A DNA stretch of 64,000 nucleotides from an uncultured Desulfovibrionaceae bacterium. GTDB lineage: Bacteria > Desulfobacterota > Desulfovibrionia > Desulfovibrionales > Desulfovibrionaceae. Within the stretch, counting starts at the first letter, position 1. Each line of letters opens with the position of its first letter. The notes beneath the pieces were generated by a model, which searched no databases, had not been told where the DNA came from, and worked only from the letters and a program-made list of their open reading frames with translations. Both the position numbers and the translations under genes were made by a program. Below are positions 3,329-15,350 of the stretch, one piece after another. The DNA is taken from NCBI GenBank assembly GCA_944325195.1, contig CALUZB010000004.1, forward strand, positions 248,001 through 312,000, written 5' to 3'.

Positions 3329-4444
3329 ATGGCAAGAGATCCAAGTCGTACCGAGAAAGCGACACCCAAACACCGCAACAGAGCCAGAAAGAAAGGTAAT
3401 GTTCCCCGTTCGGCCGAGGTCGGTAAAACGTTTACTCTGGTTGTGGGTCTGATTATCCTCTATTTGTGGGTCAGTCATGTAGGCTCGGAAATGCAGGTGC
3501 TGATGCGACACACCTTGCTTCACTCATACGAGTACGAGATTACGCCACAAAACATCACCAATCTGTTTACCAGTAACGTTATTTTTCTGGCTAAACTGGT
3601 CTTGCCGGTACTTTTGGTAATCGGGTTGATGGTACTGATTATTACCCGCCTGCAAGTGGGTAAACTCTGGACCTTTGAACCGATGAAACCCAAGTTATCC
3701 AAGTTCAACGTCATTTCCGGGTTCAAACGGATTATGCTTTCGCCGGCAACCTTGGGACGCATGGGTAAAAGCATGGCCCAGGCTTTTATCATCGGCCTTG
3801 CCCCATATATCGTCATCCGCAACGAATGGGACAACTTTCTGGCATTGTATTATACCGATGCCGGAACGCTGGCGGCCTATATTCTGCAAACCGGCGCCAA
3901 GATAGTTTTCTATGCCTTGATTCCCATGTGCGTTATTGCACTCATAGACTTCATCTACAGCCGTTGGAAATACGAAGAAGACCTGAAAATGACCAAGTCG
4001 GAAGTCAAAGATGAAATGAGACAGGCCGACGGCGACCCGATGATTAAAAACAAACAGCGTCAGAAAATGTTTGAAGTAATGCGCCGCCGAATGATGCAGG
4101 ACGTTCCCAAGGCTGACGTGGTAATCACCAACCCCACCCATATCGCGGTGGCCCTGAAATACAATGCCGATGAAGCGCCGGCTCCGGTGGTCGTGGCAAA
4201 AGGGGCGGACCTGATCGCGGAAAAAATTAAAGAAATCGCCCGCGAGCACCATGTGCCGATTCGTGAAAACAAACCGTTGGCACGAGCTTTGTATAAAGAT
4301 GTTGAGATCGGCGACATGATTCCTGAAGAATTGTATCAGGCCGTGGCCTCAATTCTGGCCTCGCTGAACAAGTTCAAGCGTAACCGCCCCACTCCGCCTA
4401 CAGTCAATGGCAACCCGGGTGGCGGCGGAGCGACTGTCAAGTAA
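3329..4444 (+). CDS. flhB: flagellar export switch protein FlhB
   Basis: FlhB (371 aa) switches flagellar type III secretion from rod/hook to filament substrates. The N-terminal half has four membrane helices and begins with the charged EKATPKHRNRARKKGNVPRS segment typical of the family. The cytoplasmic half holds the autocleavage motif NPTH (within VVITNPTHIAVALKY), followed by the conserved APVVVAKGADLIAEKIKEIA and PLARALYKDVEIG blocks. A short flexible Pro/Gly-rich tail closes the protein. It sits 24 bp after fliR and about 100 bp before flhA. Confidence 0.97.
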   Translation: MARDPSRTEKATPKHRNRARKKGNVPRSAEVGKTFTLVVGLIILYLWVSHVGSEMQVLMRHTLLHSYEYEITPQNITNLFTSNVIFLAKLVLPVLLVIGLMVLIITRLQVGKLWTFEPMKPKLSKFNVISGFKRIMLSPATLGRMGKSMAQAFIIGLAPYIVIRNEWDNFLALYYTDAGTLAAYILQTGAKIVFYALIPMCVIALIDFIYSRWKYEEDLKMTKSEVKDEMRQADGDPMIKNKQRQKMFEVMRRRMMQDVPKADVVITNPTHIAVALKYNADEAPAPVVVAKGADLIAEKIKEIAREHHVPIRENKPLARALYKDVEIGDMIPEELYQAVASILASLNKFKRNRPTPPTVNGNPGGGGATVK

Positions 4445-4548: not shown

Positions 4549-6699
4549 ATGGCCAAATCAGCCTTGCAACGCATAGATTATAAAAAATTCCAAAAGCAGG
4601 GTGACATTCTGCTCGCCAGTGGAGTGGTAATCATTCTGTTCGTCATGCTGGTTCCCATTCCAACTCCCCTGCTTGATATTCTGCTTGCCGTAAACATCGC
4701 CATTTCCATGACGGTGCTGGTTACCGCCATGTTTGTAACCTCTCCGGTTGAATTTTCCATTTTCCCAAGCCTGCTTCTGGTCACCACCTTGATGCGCCTG
4801 GCTCTGAACGTGGCCACTACCCGAGTGATCTTGCTGCGCGGAAGCGAAGGCACTGATGCGGCCGGACAAGTGATCCAGGCTTTCGGCCAGTTCGTAGTCG
4901 GCGGCAGCTATGTTATCGGGGTAGTGGTCTTCCTGATTTTGTTCCTGCTGAACAAAATGGTTATTGCCGCCGGTACCGTGCGCATTGCAGAAGTAGCAGC
5001 CCGCTTTACCCTGGACGCCATGCCGGGTAAACAAATGGCTATTGAAGCCGACCTGAACGCCGGACTGATTACCGAAGATGAGGCCAACCAGCGCCGCGAA
5101 GATATCCGTTCCGAGGCGGACTTCTACGGGGCCATGGACGGTGCCGGCAAGTTCGTGCAAGGGGACGTGAACGCAAGCGTTCTGATCATGCTGGTAAACA
5201 TCGTGGGCGGTATTTTGATCGGCGTGCTGATGAACGGCATGAGCTGGGGAGACGCCCTATCCACTTACACCATTCTCACTGTGGGGGACGGCCTGGTGGC
5301 AATTATCCCCGGCATCCTTATTTCCACGTCGTCCGGTATCATCGTTTCCCGCTCCGGGGCCAAAGCCAAAATGGGTGAAGAATTCATCGGTCAGCTCACC
5401 CGCCACTACCGCGCTTTGCGCCTGGTGTCGGCAATCATGGTTGTGTTCGCTCTGGTTCCCGGCATGCCCACGATATCTTTTCTGGTGTTGGGCGCGGCCC
5501 TCTATATTGCTTCAAGAGTTGTTCCGCAAGATGAACTTTTTGTTACAGAAACTCCAGGCAGAGCCCTGCCCGGCGGAAGCAAAGCCCTGCCCGGCGGTAC
5601 CAAGGCCCTGGGGCCCGGAAGCTCGTCCGAGCAAAGCCTGGATACACCGGAAGAAGTGCAGACGCTGCTCTCGCTGGATACGCTTGAGCTGGAAGTGGGC
5701 TATGGACTGATTCCGCTGGTTGATGAAGATCAGAACGGCAACCTGTTGTCGCGCATTCGTTCCATTCGCCGTCAATTCGCCCTGGAAATGGGGGTTATCA
5801 TTCCCTCGTTGCATCTGCGCGACAATCTGCAGTTGCGGCCAGGTCAATACAGCGTGCTGATCAAAGGCAATGAAGTAGCCGGCGCTGAAATTTTAATTGA
5901 TCATTATCTGGCTATGGATTCCGGAGCCGTGCGCAACCGTGTGGAAGGTGTGGAAACCCGTGAACCCGCGTTCAACCTGCCCGCGCTCTGGATTCCGGAA
6001 GCACGCAAGGAAGAAGCCATGCTGGCCGGATATACCGTGGTTGACCCGGCTACAGTTATCGCCACTCACCTTACAGAAGTATTCAAAAGGCAGTTGCCGG
6101 AATTCCTGGGACGTCAGGAAGTACAGGCCCTGCTCGACAACCTGGCCAAATATGCGCCCAAAGCGGTGGAAGACCTGGTTCCAGGAACTATGTCTCTGGG
6201 AGCAGTGCAGAAAGTTCTGCAGAACCTGGTTCGGGAAAATGTGTCTATCCGCGACCTGCTGTCCATAGTGGAAACACTTGCGGACTACGCCGGTTCCGGC
6301 AAAGATACCAACGCCCTTACCGAACACGTGCGGGAACGCATCTGCCGTACCGTGGTCAAGCCTTATCTCGGCACAGACGGCGGCTTGTCAATCATCACCT
6401 TGGACTCCATGGTGGAAAAAACTTTGCAGGAATCCATCAGACAAACGGAAACCGGCTCCTATCTGGCCATTCATCCCGCTACTGCCCAGAGCATTATGCG
6501 CGAAATAAATCAAAGTGTGGAAAATGCGGTTGCGGCCGACGGACAACCTGTGGTACTAACCAGCCCCATGGTTCGCCCCCATCTGGCTCAGTTGATGACC
6601 CGTTTCCTGCCCGGAGTGCCGGTTATCTCTCAAGCCGAAATCCCGCCGGACATCCGCCTTACCTCGGTAGGCAACGTAGTGTTCAATGCAGCGGCCTGA
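4549..6699 (+). CDS. flhA: flagellar export gate protein FlhA
   Basis: FlhA (716 aa) is the main proton-coupled export component. The N-terminal half holds about eight membrane helices with the conserved FPSLLLVTTLMRLALNVATTR and the FHIPEP-region equivalent RFTLDAMPGKQMAIEADLNAG. The C-terminal cytoplasmic domain (from about residue 380) binds chaperone-substrate complexes. The linker between them is unusual: it contains a near-tandem ALPGG(S/T)KAL repeat (about 5567-5615), a Gly/Pro-rich spacer. GGGAG lies 13 nt before the ATG. Confidence 0.97.
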   Translation: MAKSALQRIDYKKFQKQGDILLASGVVIILFVMLVPIPTPLLDILLAVNIAISMTVLVTAMFVTSPVEFSIFPSLLLVTTLMRLALNVATTRVILLRGSEGTDAAGQVIQAFGQFVVGGSYVIGVVVFLILFLLNKMVIAAGTVRIAEVAARFTLDAMPGKQMAIEADLNAGLITEDEANQRREDIRSEADFYGAMDGAGKFVQGDVNASVLIMLVNIVGGILIGVLMNGMSWGDALSTYTILTVGDGLVAIIPGILISTSSGIIVSRSGAKAKMGEEFIGQLTRHYRALRLVSAIMVVFALVPGMPTISFLVLGAALYIASRVVPQDELFVTETPGRALPGGSKALPGGTKALGPGSSSEQSLDTPEEVQTLLSLDTLELEVGYGLIPLVDEDQNGNLLSRIRSIRRQFALEMGVIIPSLHLRDNLQLRPGQYSVLIKGNEVAGAEILIDHYLAMDSGAVRNRVEGVETREPAFNLPALWIPEARKEEAMLAGYTVVDPATVIATHLTEVFKRQLPEFLGRQEVQALLDNLAKYAPKAVEDLVPGTMSLGAVQKVLQNLVRENVSIRDLLSIVETLADYAGSGKDTNALTEHVRERICRTVVKPYLGTDGGLSIITLDSMVEKTLQESIRQTETGSYLAIHPATAQSIMREINQSVENAVAADGQPVVLTSPMVRPHLAQLMTRFLPGVPVISQAEIPPDIRLTSVGNVVFNAAA

Positions 6700-6776: not shown

Positions 6777-7913
6777 ATGCAGGTTAAAACATTTCTGGGG
6801 AAAGATCCCGCTCAAGTGCTTGCCCAGGTAAAAGATGAAATGGGCCCGGACGCGGTAATTCTGAACTCGCGCGATATATGCAAGGGAAGTGTGCGCCTGT
6901 ATGAAGTGGTTGCCGGGGTTGAGCAGGCAGCCGTTCCGGAGCCCCAGTCAGAACCGGAGACGCAAAACGAATTGCCGACTGCTTCAGGAAGTTCTGGAGC
7001 GGAATACTCTTACAGCGGGAACACTGTTGGGCTGAACCTGCCTTTAGGTTGGCGACAATGGCATAAAGACTGGACTTCCCTGCGTGAAAATATTCTTGCT
7101 CTGCTTAAACCTGAGCTGCATCTGGAAAGGCTGCCGCCCCGCCAGCGGCTTGCATTGGAGTATCTGCAACGCGAAGGGGTTGACGATGAGGTCGTCATCA
7201 AATTATACCGCAGTCTTTGCGCGGATGACAAACAATCCGTCATCAGGCCGCTTGCCGAAATGGTTACAGTGCGGCCTTGGGGATTTAAAGACTGGAGAAA
7301 TAAAGTACACTTGGTTACCGGGCCGTTCGGCGTAGGTAAAACAGTGACTGCACTGCGAATGGGCATTGCTTTGCGAGAAGAAAAATCAGACGCATCAATT
7401 GCAATAATCAATGCCGACTGTGAGCGTGGACACGGGCGCCTGATTCTGAAACACTATTGCGAGCTGTTGGACATAGCCTACAACGAAGCGTCCAACGCTG
7501 TAGAAATGCGTGCTGCTTTTGAAAATAACCGAACTGTCGATCGCGTAATCATAGATTTACCCGGACTGGCCTCAACTGAAACACTGAGCGGCCTTTTAAA
7601 AAACTTCGGACTCACAGGGAAAGCGCCTTTGCATCTGGTTTTAGCTCCCTATTTTTCCAAAGAGCATATCAGAGGCCTGCTTACCGCTTATGAAGCGGAG
7701 CGCTGCGCAAGCTTAATTTGGACCAAGCTTGATGAAGCATATTCATTCGGCAGCATTGCCAACGCATCGGCAATGAGTGGTCTGCCCGTGTCCGCCTTAT
7801 CTTTTGCGCCGGGTTTAACCAACTCTTTGTGTCCGGCTCAAGCAATTCAGATATGGCATTTACTGTTTAAACACGAGTTGCCTTGCGCACAAGCCCCTTT
7901 AACCCATAGTTGA
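6777..7913 (+). CDS. flhF: flagellar SRP-type GTPase FlhF
   Basis: FlhF (378 aa) is an SRP54/FtsY-like GTPase that sets polar flagellum position. The N-terminal motif MQVKTFLGKDPAQVLAQVKDEMGPDAVIL is the classic FlhF start. The G domain carries P-loop GPFGVGKT and the G4 motif TKLDE. The protein is divergent: G1 has Phe where most relatives have Thr (GPTGVGKT), and the G3 region reads IIDLPG instead of DTAGR. The gene is followed 13 bp later by flhG, its usual partner, so they are likely translated from one transcript. Confidence 0.9.
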   Translation: MQVKTFLGKDPAQVLAQVKDEMGPDAVILNSRDICKGSVRLYEVVAGVEQAAVPEPQSEPETQNELPTASGSSGAEYSYSGNTVGLNLPLGWRQWHKDWTSLRENILALLKPELHLERLPPRQRLALEYLQREGVDDEVVIKLYRSLCADDKQSVIRPLAEMVTVRPWGFKDWRNKVHLVTGPFGVGKTVTALRMGIALREEKSDASIAIINADCERGHGRLILKHYCELLDIAYNEASNAVEMRAAFENNRTVDRVIIDLPGLASTETLSGLLKNFGLTGKAPLHLVLAPYFSKEHIRGLLTAYEAERCASLIWTKLDEAYSFGSIANASAMSGLPVSALSFAPGLTNSLCPAQAIQIWHLLFKHELPCAQAPLTHS

Positions 7914-7926
7914 TATGGAGACGTAA

Positions 7927-8739
7927 ATGACAACAAAATTACCATTAGTTTTTTCTGTTACATCAGGCAAGGGTGGAGTGGGGAAAACTAATATCTCTGT
8001 CAACCTGGCCTGCTGCCTGGCAAAAAATGGGAAAAAAGTGGTACTGCTTGATGCCGACTTGGGGCTGGCGAACGTCGATGTGGTGCTGGGAGTGACTCCA
8101 CGTTTTAATTTATTCCACCTGTTCCAGCAAAGTGCCAAACTCACAGATATCTTGTTTGAAACCCCCTACGGGTTCTCCATTTTGCCGGCTGCGTCGGGCG
8201 TAAACGGAATGGTCAGTCTTGATACAGGACAAAAACTTGAACTCCTTGACGCCATGGACATTCTTGAAGATTCAATCGATTATTTAATTGTGGACACAGG
8301 CGCGGGGATTAGCGATAATGTACTCTACTTCAATATGGCCGCTCAGGAGCGTCTGGTGGTGCTGACTCCGGAACCCACGTCGCTTACCGACGCCTATGCG
8401 CTGATTAAAGTGATGAAGCTGAACCATGGTGTTGAAAAATTCCGGGTGGTGGTTAATATGGCTCAGAACATGAGTATGGCCAAAGATATATTCCAGCGCC
8501 TGCACAATGCTTGCGAGTATTTTCTGTCCGGCATCTCTCTTGACCTGGCCGGGTTCATCCCCAGTAATGCTGTTGTGCGGGAAGCCGTGATCAAACAGGA
8601 GCCGGTGGTAATTTGCAAACCGAACAGCAGTGTGGGAAAGGCCTTCGCAAACTTAACAGAAACGATTGAAACTTGGCAGGTGTCTGAAAACTTGGATGGC
8701 AACATCAAATTTTTCTGGAAGAAACTGCTGTTTCAATAA
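7927..8739 (+). CDS. flhG: MinD-like ATPase FlhG (FleN/YlxH)
   Basis: This 270-residue ParA/MinD-type ATPase controls flagellar number and acts with FlhF at the cell pole. The deviant Walker A box is near the N terminus (SGKGGVGKTNISVNLA), followed by LLDADLGLANVDVVLG, and the switch II-like IVDTGAG is in the middle. A GGAG lies 8 nt before the ATG. It sits between flhF and fliA, an arrangement widely seen in polarly flagellated bacteria. Confidence 0.95.
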   Translation: MTTKLPLVFSVTSGKGGVGKTNISVNLACCLAKNGKKVVLLDADLGLANVDVVLGVTPRFNLFHLFQQSAKLTDILFETPYGFSILPAASGVNGMVSLDTGQKLELLDAMDILEDSIDYLIVDTGAGISDNVLYFNMAAQERLVVLTPEPTSLTDAYALIKVMKLNHGVEKFRVVVNMAQNMSMAKDIFQRLHNACEYFLSGISLDLAGFIPSNAVVREAVIKQEPVVICKPNSSVGKAFANLTETIETWQVSENLDGNIKFFWKKLLFQ

Positions 8740-8750
8740 TCTACTGATTT

Positions 8751-9560
8751 ATGCCGGCATCTGAGCTGAAAAACGCATATAACAAAAACAACCCCGCGGA
8801 ACCATGGCATGATTTTGAGTCCGGCCGGGTGGCTTGGCACGATTTTCCCGCTGCAGAACAGGAAAAAATAGTGCGCCACTTCGCTCCTAAAATCAAATTC
8901 CTGGCATTGCGGCTGAAAGCACGTCTGCCCAAAAGCGTGGAATTCTCCGAGCTCATTTCCGCCGGAACTTTAGGTTTGATGGAGTGTTTCGGCAAGTTTC
9001 AACCTAATTTGGGAATAAAGTTTGATACATATGCTGAAAACCGTATCCGGGGTGCAATGCTGGACGATTTGCGCCGCCTGGACTGGTTTCCCCGCTCATT
9101 GCGCCAGAAAGTCCGTCAGGTGGAAGACGCGTCTGCGCGTATAGAAGCAAGCAAAGGCCGCAGCGCAACTGAACACGAAATCGCCGAACTCACCAACTAT
9201 AGCGAGAGAGAAGTGCGGGAGGCGATGGAAGCCATACAAAATCAGCAATGTCTGTCTCTGGACACCCTGCTGGAAAACTCATCCCTGTCCGGCGAAGGCA
9301 TGTCGGATAATGAGCCGTATAAAAATGCAGTGACCACTGAACTGGTGGACAAAGTAGCTGAATTAATAGAACAATTGACACCACGCGAAAAACTGGTATT
9401 GTCCCTCTATTATACCGATGAGCTGAACATGCGCGAAGCCGCTGAAGTTATGGGGGTAACTGAAGGTCGGGTTTCTCAACTCCACTCCCAAGCTCTTGCC
9501 CGTTTGCGTCGTGAATTTAACAGCTTATATGGAGAGTCTGCGACGTTCGATCCGGTATAG
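8751..9560 (+). CDS. fliA: flagellar sigma factor FliA (sigma-28)
   Basis: FliA (269 aa) directs transcription of late flagellar genes. Region 2 is recognisable (FSELISAGTLGLMECFGKFQPNLGIKFDTYAENRIRGAMLDDLR, the promoter-melting and -10 recognition region). Region 4 (LTPREKLVLSLYYTDELNMREAAEVMGVTEGRVSQLHSQAL) forms the -35 helix-turn-helix. It follows flhG by 11 bp with no clear Shine-Dalgarno, so translation may be coupled. A matching sigma-28 promoter lies upstream of fliD, about 500 bp downstream. Confidence 0.96.
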   Translation: MPASELKNAYNKNNPAEPWHDFESGRVAWHDFPAAEQEKIVRHFAPKIKFLALRLKARLPKSVEFSELISAGTLGLMECFGKFQPNLGIKFDTYAENRIRGAMLDDLRRLDWFPRSLRQKVRQVEDASARIEASKGRSATEHEIAELTNYSEREVREAMEAIQNQQCLSLDTLLENSSLSGEGMSDNEPYKNAVTTELVDKVAELIEQLTPREKLVLSLYYTDELNMREAAEVMGVTEGRVSQLHSQALARLRREFNSLYGESATFDPV

Positions 9561-10206: not shown

Positions 10207-13200
10207 ATGGCAGTAGAATACACATCCGGCAGCATTCATTTCAGCGGACTGGGATCGAACACCGATTTCGATACCATGATCTCCCAGTTGAAAACGATAG
10301 AATCAAGCTACAAGAACCGCTTAACTTTGTGGCAAGCCGATTGGAACAGACGTATCGACGCCTTCCAGCAGTTGAACACAGCAATGTTGAGCCTCAGTTC
10401 CACGCTCAGTTCAATGAATACCATGAGCAAATTCCTGCTCAAAAATGCCGTGACCTCAAACGAAAACATTCTGACGGCCACCGCCACTGCCAACGCTCAA
10501 AACAACTCGAATAAAATCGAAGTAAACAAGCTGGCGACCAACGCAGCTTATACTTGGGAAGGGAGCAAATTCTCCAGTGCCAAGGATAAAGCCAACCCTA
10601 CCAATCAGACCCAGAACTTCGTTTATACCTATAAGGGAAAAACTGTCACTATAGCTGTGGGCGCCAACGCAACCATGGAGCAATTCATCAACCAAATCAA
10701 CACTGACGCCAACAATCCCGGCGTGCGCGCCTCTCTGATCAAAAACGGCAGTGAATATGTGTTCCAGCTTCAAGGTCAGGATACCGGCGCTTCCGCCACC
10801 CTGACCATTGACGCCACCAGCTCAAGCGCTTTGGCCATCAAGCCGCCTACTGAAAGCTCCGCTCTGACCACTAAATTTTCTTCGCCCAATGCAGTCATTA
10901 ACTCCAGCGGGGCTGCCCAGAACTTTGTTTACAGCTACAATGGATACGACTTCACCGTGAGCATGAATGACGGAGCCACCTTGCAGGACCTGGCCAATGC
11001 TATTAATTCTGACGCAAACAATCCTGGAGTAACCGCCAAAGTTGTGCAAACCGGGAATATGCACTCCCTGCAAATAACGCCTGACGACGGCACGTCCACA
11101 GTACAGACTTCAGCCAACACTCAAATAGCCATCGAGTTTGCTACGAAAGACTCCGCGGACACAACCGGCTGGAGTACCACCGCCTATAATGTCGAACGCA
11201 CAACTTCCGATTTGCGCTTTGATAAAGCCAGCCGCAGCATTAACAACAGCGGTTCACCGCAGAACTTCGTCTGGACTGACAGCGCTGATACTTATACCCT
11301 GGCAGTGGACAGCGGCACAACCCTGAGCCAACTGGCCGCCGACATTAATGCTGTCGGCTCTTCCACCCGAGCAGAGGTGCTTAAGGACAAAAACGGATAT
11401 TACCTCCAGCTCACAGAGCTTAACCCCAACCATAACGCCGCCCCGCAAATAGACGACAGCAGCAGCGCTTACCTGGCCATTACCGGGGATAATACCTATG
11501 CGTCGGAATACACAACGGAAATTGAATCATACACGCAACATTCGCAAGGTTTTTCCGGCCCCGATGCGGTGATCAACTATTCCGGAAGCACACAGGAGTT
11601 TAAATATACCTATGGCGGGGAAACCTATTCCGTGCAGGTGGGGGCCAATGCCACTCTGGCCGATCTGGTTGATGCGATAAACAACAACCCGGAAACAGGC
11701 TCCGGAACCGACCCGATCAGCAGCAAGGTCAAAGCCCGCATCGGCTGTGACGGAGAAAACGCATATCGCCTGTATTTGTATTCAGCCGACGGCAACACCA
11801 GCGCAAAAATCGCCATTGCCGGCGACTCCAGCACGGCCCTGGAAATTGCTCCGCCCAAGTCCAGTTGGACGAACAGCGGCAACGACACTACATACGGTAA
11901 AAAATTCGACTCCACCGCCGATGTGATCAACAGCACAGGCAGCGGCCAGGATTTTAAATTTATTGACGGAAACGGCAATCTGCAAAGTGTCACTGTCGCG
12001 GACGGCGGAAGCTTGGAATCGCTTATTGATGCAATCAACGCCCAAACCAACAGCGGCGCCAGCCACGGGGTCACCGCATCCGCAGTTAATGTGGACGGCA
12101 AGGTACAACTGAAACTCAGCGGCGCCACCGGCCCGGTGCGCATAGAGAGCACCAGTTCCCGTATGCTGGCCGTTTCTCCGGGTGCAAACTGGAGTACCAG
12201 TACAGCGAACAACAGTATCACCTTCGGTAATTTTGCGGATGTTAACGCCGTGATCAATGACTCCGGGGCAACACAGACTTTTGCCTTTTTATATAAAGAC
12301 CAGCAGTATTCAGTCAATCTGGCGAATAATGCCACTTTACAGGATCTGATCGATGCAATTAACAACGATCCAACCCTTTCGGCGCTGGTAAAGGCTGAAG
12401 CCGTAACCAACGGCAACATTACCCAATTTGTGCTCAAAAGCAATGAAGCGGATAATAAGGCCACTCCCACCATTGCCGACGGCAGCAGCAGTGCGCTGGC
12501 AATCTTCCGCAACACTACCAGCTCGTACATCAATAAGGAAAAAAATACTGTTTCCGGCTTAATTGAAACCAAGGACGACAACAGCATTAACTGGTCAGGC
12601 AGCGATCAGACTTTTACCTATACCTATGACGGTACCACTGGTTCCATAACTGTGCCTGACGGCTGCACCATGGAGCAATTCATTGACCTGATCAATAACA
12701 ATAAAAAAATGAAGAATGTGTATGCCAGCGCTGAATACGTCGGGGTTGACGCCGCCGGTAATGCTCAATACAAGCTGCACCTTTCCGGCACCAACTCCAA
12801 TAAAGCGCCCACTGTCAGCCCTTCAACCAGCAAACATGAGAATTTCGCCATTCGCCCGCCGGCTTCTGAGTTCAGCGAGGACGATAATGTCCCTGTCGCT
12901 GTCTTTGAAACGCCGGTAAACGGCAGTGACGTGGTCAACTCCACTGCCAACGAGCAGAAGTTCATGGTTGAATATATGGGCAAAAACATCAGCCTGACAA
13001 TTCAACCTGGCGAAACTGTTGATGATCTGATCAACAAATTAAACAGCCGGACCGACGGCCAGATTAAAGCCAATCTGTTCACCGCCCAGGACGGCAGTCA
13101 GTACCTGCAATTGTGGGGCACTGACTCAAACGCCACCCGTCCGCCCCAGGTCAGCACATCCAGCAGCAAGGATTTGCTGATTGCTCCGCCCGACATCAGC

Positions 13201-14316
13201 TCAGGAGACTGGTATATCCAGATGAACAGCAATGCTCAGCTCAAGCTGAACGACTGGCCTGAGGGTGATCAGTGGATTGAGTCTGAAACCAACTCGCCCA
13301 CAGAACTGATTGAAGGCGTGAACCTCAACCTCAAAGATGTTGGAACAGCGCAAGTTACGGTAACCACCAACAGCGACGGCATTAAAGAACAGATTGTCGC
13401 ATTTGTGGACGCCTTGAATTCAGTTCGTTACCTGATCAACCAGCTCACCGCTGTGGATACGGGGAAAAGCACAGAGGAAATCGGCGATTCGGCATCCAAC
13501 TTTGACGCCCAACTCGGCTCCATTTTGACAGGCAATTACGGTGTTCAATTACTGTCAAGCATTCTTAAAAGTACCACGGCCTCAAAGGCTCCGGGCTTTG
13601 AATATCAGCATACGGCTGCCGACGGTCTGATTACCGGAGATCTGTTTACCAACCTGTCGCATGTGGGCATTACCACCTGTGCGGAAACCAATAACCCGAA
13701 CATCGGGTTGCTGGTGATTGACGAAGAAAAACTGGATGCAGCTTTGGCGCAGGACGCCCAGGCGGTTGCAGAGTTGTTCGCGGCAGACAACAAGGCCTCC
13801 GTAAATACATCCGATTTCTCGTTTGGCGGGTATATTTCCGGCCAAACTCAAGCCGGGTCATATGAATTCCACTATACTATCAACAGCGACGACAATATTC
13901 TTGACCCGTATGTCATAAGTGACGGCAAGAAATATAAAGCCAGATGGGACAGTGATGCTAACGAAATAACCATTATAGAAGGACCGGGACAGGGTCTGTC
14001 CATTAAAGTCAACAGCACCCAACAGGGCGACTACACCGGCAAAGTAACCTTGAAAATGGGGAAAGTGGGCGAGCTGTCTTCTTTAGTAAGCCAGTTGAAC
14101 AAGGACGACGGCATCTTAAATATTCTGGAAGACAACTATAAGCAAATCAGCCAAAATATTCAGGATAAAATTGATAAGGAAGAAGAACGCCTGATCGTGT
14201 GGGAACGTAATATGCGTAATAAGTTTGCCCGGCTGGAGGCGACCTTGACGCAGTATAACTCACTCAGCACCCAATTGGAAAGCACGATCAGCCAACTATC
14301 TAAAAACAACAAATAA
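10207..14316 (+). CDS. fliD: flagellar filament cap protein FliD, greatly expanded
   Basis: FliD caps the growing filament and assists flagellin folding. The chosen ATG (MAVEYTSGSIHFSGLGSNTDF) has AGAGG nine bases upstream and matches family N termini; an in-frame upstream extension to 10084 would cross the promoter elements. The N-terminal FliD_N region (residues 1-110) and the C-terminal FliD_C region (about 1010-1369, with a final coiled coil) are normal. Between them lie eight repeats of about 95-120 residues, each with a core like N-x-SG-x-x-Q-x-F, an aromatic strand, an N/D-G-x-T-L-x-D-L-x-x-x-I-N helix and a D-G-S-S-S-A-L-A-I end. These resemble the flagellin hook IN motif. At 1369 aa it is two to three times the usual FliD length. 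Confidence 0.93.
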   Translation: MAVEYTSGSIHFSGLGSNTDFDTMISQLKTIESSYKNRLTLWQADWNRRIDAFQQLNTAMLSLSSTLSSMNTMSKFLLKNAVTSNENILTATATANAQNNSNKIEVNKLATNAAYTWEGSKFSSAKDKANPTNQTQNFVYTYKGKTVTIAVGANATMEQFINQINTDANNPGVRASLIKNGSEYVFQLQGQDTGASATLTIDATSSSALAIKPPTESSALTTKFSSPNAVINSSGAAQNFVYSYNGYDFTVSMNDGATLQDLANAINSDANNPGVTAKVVQTGNMHSLQITPDDGTSTVQTSANTQIAIEFATKDSADTTGWSTTAYNVERTTSDLRFDKASRSINNSGSPQNFVWTDSADTYTLAVDSGTTLSQLAADINAVGSSTRAEVLKDKNGYYLQLTELNPNHNAAPQIDDSSSAYLAITGDNTYASEYTTEIESYTQHSQGFSGPDAVINYSGSTQEFKYTYGGETYSVQVGANATLADLVDAINNNPETGSGTDPISSKVKARIGCDGENAYRLYLYSADGNTSAKIAIAGDSSTALEIAPPKSSWTNSGNDTTYGKKFDSTADVINSTGSGQDFKFIDGNGNLQSVTVADGGSLESLIDAINAQTNSGASHGVTASAVNVDGKVQLKLSGATGPVRIESTSSRMLAVSPGANWSTSTANNSITFGNFADVNAVINDSGATQTFAFLYKDQQYSVNLANNATLQDLIDAINNDPTLSALVKAEAVTNGNITQFVLKSNEADNKATPTIADGSSSALAIFRNTTSSYINKEKNTVSGLIETKDDNSINWSGSDQTFTYTYDGTTGSITVPDGCTMEQFIDLINNNKKMKNVYASAEYVGVDAAGNAQYKLHLSGTNSNKAPTVSPSTSKHENFAIRPPASEFSEDDNVPVAVFETPVNGSDVVNSTANEQKFMVEYMGKNISLTIQPGETVDDLINKLNSRTDGQIKANLFTAQDGSQYLQLWGTDSNATRPPQVSTSSSKDLLIAPPDISSGDWYIQMNSNAQLKLNDWPEGDQWIESETNSPTELIEGVNLNLKDVGTAQVTVTTNSDGIKEQIVAFVDALNSVRYLINQLTAVDTGKSTEEIGDSASNFDAQLGSILTGNYGVQLLSSILKSTTASKAPGFEYQHTAADGLITGDLFTNLSHVGITTCAETNNPNIGLLVIDEEKLDAALAQDAQAVAELFAADNKASVNTSDFSFGGYISGQTQAGSYEFHYTINSDDNILDPYVISDGKKYKARWDSDANEITIIEGPGQGLSIKVNSTQQGDYTGKVTLKMGKVGELSSLVSQLNKDDGILNILEDNYKQISQNIQDKIDKEEERLIVWERNMRNKFARLEATLTQYNSLSTQLESTISQLSKNNK

Positions 14317-14480: not shown

Positions 14481-15350
14481 ATGTTTAAAGCAAAACAAGC
14501 CTATTTCCAAACCCAGGTTACAACCACCACTCAAGGCGAACTTGTGGTATTGTTATACGATGGGGCGATCAAATATCTCCGTTTGGCAAAGGAGAAAATG
14601 GCGATTAAAGATTTCGCGGAAAAGGGCATTCTCATTTCCAAGGCAATGGACATCATTCAGGAACTCGACTCTTCCCTGAATATGGAACAGGGAGGGGAAA
14701 TATCTGTAAATCTGCATAGCTTGTATATTTTCGCACAAAGACAATTGCTTCAGGCCAACCTGAAAATGGATCCGAAGCTGATTGATGAAGTAATTACAAT
14801 GTTGTCATCTCTGCGCGATGCTTTTGCGGCCATTATCAATACTCCGGAAGCAATCCAGGCCCAGAAGCTTGCGCCGGAACAGGCCCCGGTAAACGTCAGT
14901 CAGTTCAGAGACAGTGGGCCATTTGGCCTTAATGAAGTAAGAGTGGAAAGCGCCACCCCCGCACCAATTGCCAGTATGTCTGTCCGGGCTCGGGCCTACC
15001 GGCAGCAGGCCGCCGGGTTCAACCAGCTTATTGCGCCGAATATTCCGGCGGGAACGCCACAAGCGGCTCCACAGAGCCCGGAACAAAACACTGCTTCGCC
15101 CCAGCCGGCAACCCAAAATATGGGCCCGCAACTCCAGCCCAACGCACAAGCCGCTTCTCAGGCTACGTTTGTTCAATCTAAGAGAACAGAGGCGCAAACT
15201 CAACCGACCCAACCTCAACAGCCTCAAGCTCAACCTGTGCCGAATCAAATGGCCTCACAAGCTTTAACCGGGTTTGCCAGACAGATGATTAACAACAGTC
15301 TGTATAAAAAAATGGCACTGAACAACACAGCTCAGTCACCTGAAAAGTAA
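14481..15350 (+). CDS. fliS: flagellin chaperone FliS with long Pro/Gln-rich tail
   Basis: The first 125 residues form a FliS helical bundle (AYFQTQVTTTTQGELVVLLYDGAIKYL ... SLYIFAQRQLLQANLKMDPKLIDEVITMLSSLRDAF). FliS binds the flagellin C terminus and prevents early polymerisation. The remaining 165 residues are low-complexity, rich in Pro, Gln, Ala and Asn, and probably disordered; most FliS proteins are only 120-150 aa. The gene follows fliD by 164 bp. That gap contains GCCGATAG at 14350, which resembles a FliA -10 element, but I see no good -35. A terminator follows the gene. Confidence 0.92.
   Translation: MFKAKQAYFQTQVTTTTQGELVVLLYDGAIKYLRLAKEKMAIKDFAEKGILISKAMDIIQELDSSLNMEQGGEISVNLHSLYIFAQRQLLQANLKMDPKLIDEVITMLSSLRDAFAAIINTPEAIQAQKLAPEQAPVNVSQFRDSGPFGLNEVRVESATPAPIASMSVRARAYRQQAAGFNQLIAPNIPAGTPQAAPQSPEQNTASPQPATQNMGPQLQPNAQAASQATFVQSKRTEAQTQPTQPQQPQAQPVPNQMASQALTGFARQMINNSLYKKMALNNTAQSPEK

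Follow-up and report, generated by a model that had tools for sequence, protein, structure and literature searches.

An array of eight tandem D3 head domains in the flagellar cap protein FliD of an uncultured Desulfovibrionaceae bacterium

We analyzed a stretch of 64,000 nucleotides (the window) from the genome of an uncultured, gut-type Desulfovibrionaceae bacterium and found that its flagellar filament cap protein, FliD, carries eight tandem copies of the D3 head domain, inserted in a loop of domain D2 at the normal site of a single D3. This eight-D3 FliD is a new, extreme version of a known protein architecture; nothing specific on tandem D3 repeats or on a long FliD was found in the open-access literature. 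The same eight modules occur in the same order in the FliD of the one sampled congener (G001, contig JAFQMU010000009.1, a Desulfovibrionaceae MAG from goat caecum). Overall, the protein is best explained, with fair probability, as a cap in which the amplified D3 domains would form flexible arms, kept by selection and serving as a binding tuft at the filament tip.

The cap protein is encoded by a single intact open reading frame with an ATG at 10207 and no internal stop codon. The first-pass annotation had recognized it as a FliD with normal ends, and this is borne out by the Pfam families FliD_N (residues 17-112, E 7e-18) and FliD_C (residues 1009-1352, E 4.5e-25), both above the gathering score, by the adjoining fliS within a flagellar neighborhood, and by a domain D2 split by the D3 insertion. 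The gene and its parts outside the module array are located in the window as follows.

10207 to 14316, plus strand, stop codon included: fliD, flagellar filament cap protein, 1369 amino acids (open reading frame and Pfam; sole FliD of the genome)
10207 to 10431, plus strand: N-terminal D0/D1 leg helices, residues 1-75 (FliD_N; 95% identity with the congener)
10432 to 10554, plus strand: first half of head domain D2, residues 76-116 (model strands preceding module M1; position as in P. aeruginosa FliD, PMC5072837)
13234 to 13392, plus strand: second half of head domain D2, residues 1010-1062 (model strands following module M8; 96% identity with the congener)
13393 to 14313, plus strand: C-terminal D1/D0 leg helices, residues 1063-1369 (FliD_C)

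A second FliD was searched for in the window genome and was not found, and the 1369-residue protein must therefore serve as the cap. The gene order of the cluster is FlhB, FlhA, FlhF-like SRP GTPase, FlhG/MinD-like ATPase, FliA-type sigma factor, CheY-like regulator, FliD, and FliS, with the following positions.

3329 to 4444: flhB, upstream of the sigma factor gene
4549 to 6699: flhA, upstream of the sigma factor gene
6777 to 7913: flhF-like gene, upstream of the sigma factor gene
7927 to 8739: flhG/MinD-like gene, upstream of the sigma factor gene
8751 to 9560, plus strand: flagellar sigma factor of the FliA type, in the flagellar cluster shared with fliD
14481 to 15350, plus strand: fliS, flagellin export chaperone with a long Q/P/A-rich tail (PF02561, E 2.7e-38, residues 6-118 of 289)

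In the 289-residue FliS, the chaperone domain extends to about residue 118 and is followed by a Q/P/A-rich tail of about 170 residues; a long FliS frame is also present in the congener (315 residues), and frames of 200-300 residues occur in many relatives. Elsewhere, the window genome contains at least six flagellin-type genes or fragments (L107-L115, on contigs C25, C22, C6, C24, C14, and C16), in short (297 residues) and longer forms, which rules out a filament made of short flagellins only. Several of these genes are found at the ends of contigs, as would be expected if the assembly had broken at near-identical copies. On contig C25, the flagellin frame L108 appears to be interrupted at about codon 290, its C-terminal part continuing in another frame, which would reflect a frameshift, a pseudogene, or an assembly error.

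The eight modules, designated M1 to M8, are 102-118 residues long, span residues 121-1009 (window positions 10567-13233), and start at residues 121, 223, 337, 448, 566, 675, 786, and 902, the array ending at 1009.

10567 to 10872, plus strand: M1, residues 121-222, ancestral D3 head domain, pI 8.2 (clusters with the first modules of other FliDs; 87% identity with the congener)
10873 to 11214, plus strand: M2, residues 223-336, extra D3 copy (best Pfam Flagellin_IN stretch)
11215 to 11547, plus strand: M3, residues 337-447, extra D3 copy (module alignment, tree, and model)
11548 to 11901, plus strand: M4, residues 448-565, extra D3 copy (mean pLDDT 86.8 when folded alone)
11902 to 12228, plus strand: M5, residues 566-674, extra D3 copy (module alignment, tree, and model)
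12229 to 12561, plus strand: M6, residues 675-785, extra D3 copy (module alignment, tree, and model)
12562 to 12909, plus strand: M7, residues 786-901, extra D3 copy (module alignment, tree, and model)
12910 to 13233, plus strand: M8, residues 902-1009, extra D3 copy, the most divergent of all (module alignment, tree, and model)

The repeat is real and does not arise by chance, as the module profile finds one to five modules in other FliDs and recovers all eight in the congener, and the structural model repeats the unit eight times; the count of eight internal modules of about 100 residues, proposed from the sequence at first reading, thus holds. The core common to the modules consists of a strand, a YxG turn, a second strand, a T-L-x-x-L helix ending in IN, and two more strands. 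The motifs N-x-SG-x-x-Q-x-F and DL-x-x-x-IN, previously described as a shared core, stand as a consensus but not as an invariant signature: the N-x-[ST]-G part is absent from M1 and M8, and DLxxxIN is exact in M2, M4, and M6 and slightly altered in the remaining modules. Between the two FliD ends, Pfam detects Flagellin_IN (PF07196) with an E value of 1.3e-27, six of the eight stretches being significant individually. We conclude that M1 is the ancestral D3 and that M2-M8 are additions, since FliD_N and the first module are separated by about as many residues in the window FliD as in one-module relatives and M1 falls with the leading modules of other FliDs in the tree; in addition, no module is better conserved than M1 (87% identity to the congener), and it alone is basic (pI 8.2), the pI of M2-M8 being 4.1-4.7.

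The identity of the modules was assessed by sequence profile and by structure prediction, and both approaches make us nearly certain that each module is a FliD D3 head domain, a beta-grasp of the Pfam family Flagellin_IN, which was not recognized at first reading; the view, put forward then, that the copies arose by duplication is right. A profile built from 84 modules and searched against the sequences of solved structures matched the FliDs of C. jejuni (6sih, E 1.8e-12; 9gsx, 2.6e-12), H. pylori (6iwy, 5e-6), and P. aeruginosa (5fhy, 1.5e-5). By our own arithmetic, with the expression tag allowed for, the match in 5fhy falls within the contiguous second head domain (D2/D3 naming as in PMC8533109). 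M4 folded alone by AlphaFold2 gave a mean pLDDT of 86.8 and a pTM of 0.83, and the best solved-structure matches of this model were FliD D2-D3 crystal structures (5h5w, E 8e-4, probability 1.00), the closest being the FliD heads of E. coli, C. jejuni, H. pylori, Salmonella, and Serratia. The profile match is accordingly accompanied by the fold of two strands, a helix, and two or more strands that characterizes the Flagellin_IN / FliD D3 beta-grasp; a five-stranded beta-grasp has been recognized in FliD, FlgL, and FlgK (PMC1949818). The module also weakly matches solved tail tube or baseplate proteins of phage Mu and its relatives (9ki1, 9khy, 7kh1), in agreement with the published FliD/Mu-tail beta-grasp relation (PMC1949818). 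A ubiquitin-like identity was considered and rejected: the polyubiquitin match (E 6e-23) is a sum over nine copies of about 10 bits each, none significant singly, that arises only over linear polyubiquitin, and the fold search returns FliD, not ubiquitin. A Pfam match to OTU1_UBXL (E 5e-15) was discounted, no stretch being significant individually.

Structure prediction of the modules had been proposed as a check, and it was extended to residues 60-1110 (1051 residues), comprising the first D2 strands, the eight modules, the last D2 strands, and the D1 helix. The best structural matches of the split-D2 architecture were solved FliDs. Each of the eight units in this model has the order strand-strand-helix-strand-strand, with the modules mostly at pLDDT 70-95. 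In contrast, the linkers (about 15-40 residues) fall below pLDDT 50 and the pTM is 0.33, so the modules are best regarded as folded beads whose mutual arrangement is not predicted.

It had been suggested that a 17-bp sequence shared by two modules is a mark of duplication and that the copies may still recombine. The window indeed has two exact copies of ACCATGGAGCAATTCAT and no others, at positions 10672 and 12667, which encode TMEQFI in M1 and M7, respectively. However, when synonymous codons were shuffled with the protein kept, a repeat of at least 17 bp appeared in 12% of 500 trials, which places the match within chance; fliD has no other exact repeat of at least 13 bp outside the 17-mer. 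The congener retains the peptides of M1 and M7 at the TMEQFI site with partly different codons. Pairwise identity among the modules of the window FliD is only 22-43% at the amino acid level, highest for M4-M6, far from the near-identical copies of recombining repeat proteins.

The relationship between the two eight-module proteins dates the array. In the module tree, every module of the window pairs with its positional counterpart in the congener; seven of the eight pairs are starred, and the M7 pair sits in an unresolved group with one other row. This positional pairing indicates that the duplications predate the split of the genus and that the copies have not been homogenized. At the amino acid level, the N-terminal leg is 95% identical to that of the congener, the closing strands of D2 are 96% identical, the C-terminal leg 84%, and M2-M8 61-77%. 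Between the two genes, synonymous differences amount to 56-80% per site and dN in the modules to 0.07-0.27; synonymous sites are near saturation, which makes dN/dS ratios rough, and change in the modules is constrained. The positional orthology of all eight modules, together with low dN at near-saturated synonymous sites, points to selection that keeps each module copy. These results leave the idea of recent duplication and ongoing recombination without support, between-copy identity, codon shuffles, module tree, and congener all standing against it. Antigenic or phase variation through recombination between repeats, also put forward at first reading, is by the same evidence very improbable: the tandem modules would be exposed and share one exact repeat, but the copies are old, distinct, and constrained, and they show one-to-one orthology in number and order with the congener and no sign of gene conversion, at least at the species level. 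The copy number is eight in both sampled species of the genus, two being the whole sample.

The same comparison bears on whether the long gene is an assembly artefact or a misjoin. The window genome is a draft of 27 contigs, but fliD lies inside a contig of 736 kb, and the independent assembly encodes a colinear protein with 78% identity over 1367 residues and no stops. This independent eight-module copy already refutes a misjoin, to which we give practically no weight.

To place the array among relatives, modules were counted in 79 distinct FliD open reading frames, mainly from the family and the order, counts of divergent modules being lower bounds. One module was detectable in 50 of the 79, two in 11, and three or more in 18, and eight only in the window genome and its congener. 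The core-domain tree puts 17 of the 18 FliDs that have at least three modules in one well-supported group of 25; it is therefore this clade that has multiplied the module, and eight is the highest number in it. Copy number ranges from one to eight within one clade of the family; one clade has two to five modules, and eight is restricted, among the sampled relatives, to the window genus. Genomes of FliDs with at least three modules have a median size of 2.6 Mb vs 4.1 Mb for those with one (p 1e-6), with only two phylogenetically independent pairs on supported branches; the association with small, host-type genomes is strong in raw numbers but inseparable from shared ancestry.

Length alone is not unusual: of the roughly 150 open frames listed as FliD in the phylum, 23 are longer than 1000 residues. 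Repeat expansion does not account for all of them, since many carry unrelated inserts. Among the long FliDs examined, three from other families of the phylum (L116:365-4507, L117:409-4440, and L118:2-3763) have a Laminin_G_3 (concanavalin A-like lectin) insert before FliD_C, with E values of 2e-22 to 3e-26. Such fusions of cap proteins to a lectin-like domain lend support to head inserts as binding modules; the Pfam scan found no known carbohydrate-binding domain in the window FliD. In five FliDs above 1000 residues (L119, L120, L122, L123, and L126), FliD_C is split into two stretches, which suggests a large insertion within the D1 region, another route of enlargement that resembles D4 of C. 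jejuni.

We propose that the protein is the ordinary and sole cap protein of the organism, with D3 multiplied inside the D2 loop. From family knowledge, the D0/D1 helices, intact and conserved, would still form a pentamer-type tip cap and assist flagellin insertion. M1 would occupy the normal place of D3 on the cap plate, and M2-M8 would follow it as a string of beta-grasp domains on flexible linkers. Each subunit would then bear an acidic arm reaching, judging from module size, tens of nanometers past the cap. Capping itself relies on D0/D1: in P. aeruginosa, the D2-D3 head is dispensable for filament formation, D1 alone being enough for functional flagella, and FliD with the larger H. pylori D2-D5 head still works (PMC8533109). 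Since heads are dispensable and tolerant of size, and H. pylori and C. jejuni carry extra domains, M2-M8 most likely reach outward from the cap as acidic, flexible arms, as had been surmised earlier. Projection is plausible on a model in which the modules fold confidently and the linkers and geometry do not; the modules could also fold back on the cap, the model being silent on the arrangement of the eight.

Retention in two species argues for a job of M2-M8. The arms, kept by selection, would most likely form a multivalent surface-contacting or substrate-binding tuft at the tip, for example for mucus or gut particles. Specifically, we prefer a role in which the arms make multivalent contact with mucus, particles, or a surface, at somewhat less than even odds. 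A fuller and more speculative proposal is possible: with eight D3 domains per subunit, about 40 per cap if pentameric, the tuft would serve as a multivalent organ of adhesion or sensing, directed at gut mucus or particles, that arose when the cap amplified a head domain of its own. Adhesion or mucus binding by the modules is plausible by analogy with the FliDs of P. aeruginosa, C. jejuni, and C. difficile. The evidence for FliD as an adhesin is mixed: FliD of P. aeruginosa PAK mediates mucin adhesion (reviewed in PMC8306008), whereas the adhesion effect of C. difficile FliD is inseparable from the loss of flagella (PMC12713411).

Two readings would dispense with an external ligand or a binding role. 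The tandem D3 duplicates might persist as a neutral or slightly costly expansion, the heads being dispensable for capping. That filament formation is little affected when heads are deleted or made larger (PMC8533109), that copy number varies inside one family clade, and that M2-M8 diverge faster than the core (61-77% vs 84-96% identity) would all fit; yet passive duplicates are expected to decay or be lost, and here eight in-frame modules have been kept across two species at near-saturated synonymous sites, with dN far below synonymous change in every module, which leaves this reading unlikely. A purely assembly-related or mechanical role appears slightly less likely again. The large head might fit the filament or the hook-filament junction, shield the growing tip, or tune cap rotation; the D2-D3 plate of Salmonella and C. 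jejuni, stacked between subunits, seals the export cavity (PMC12221982), and the window genome has several flagellin genes of differing size. However, P. aeruginosa flagella are functional with D1 alone (PMC8533109), D4 of C. jejuni lies away from the cap cavity (PMC12221982), and only the first D3 is canonically placed, seven flexibly linked modules being hard to fit on the plate.

Compared with canonical FliD (HAP2; P. aeruginosa 5FHY, E. coli 5H5V/5H5W, Salmonella 5H5T), the window protein shares the D0/D1 legs, a D2 split around D3, the D3 fold of each module, and the cluster with fliS, but has eight D3 domains instead of one and 1369 residues instead of about 470-600. H. pylori FliD (D2-D5, 6IWY) likewise has an enlarged head that matches by profile and fold; its two additional domains (D4 and D5; PMC8306008) differ from the homogeneous D3 series found here. 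C. jejuni FliD (6SIH/9GSX) is the best solved sequence match to the module, and its extra domain D4 has been proposed to be adhesive (PMC7316729). As members of PF07196 and the FliD-FlgK-FlgL beta-grasp (PMC1949818), the modules are exceptional in number, with eight per protein vs one in most of the sampled related FliDs. In giant flagellins with expanded outer domains (PMC6248924), a flagellar axial protein is likewise enlarged in its exposed middle part; these are, however, filament subunits present in thousands of copies, and not cap proteins.

The array shows that a cap can grow by repeating a domain that it already has; elsewhere in the phylum, caps are enlarged with unrelated domains, among them lectin-like ones. 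Capping can do without the FliD heads, and a clade in which D3 has been amplified from one up to eight, with all copies kept, offers a natural series for testing the head as a platform for external interactions.
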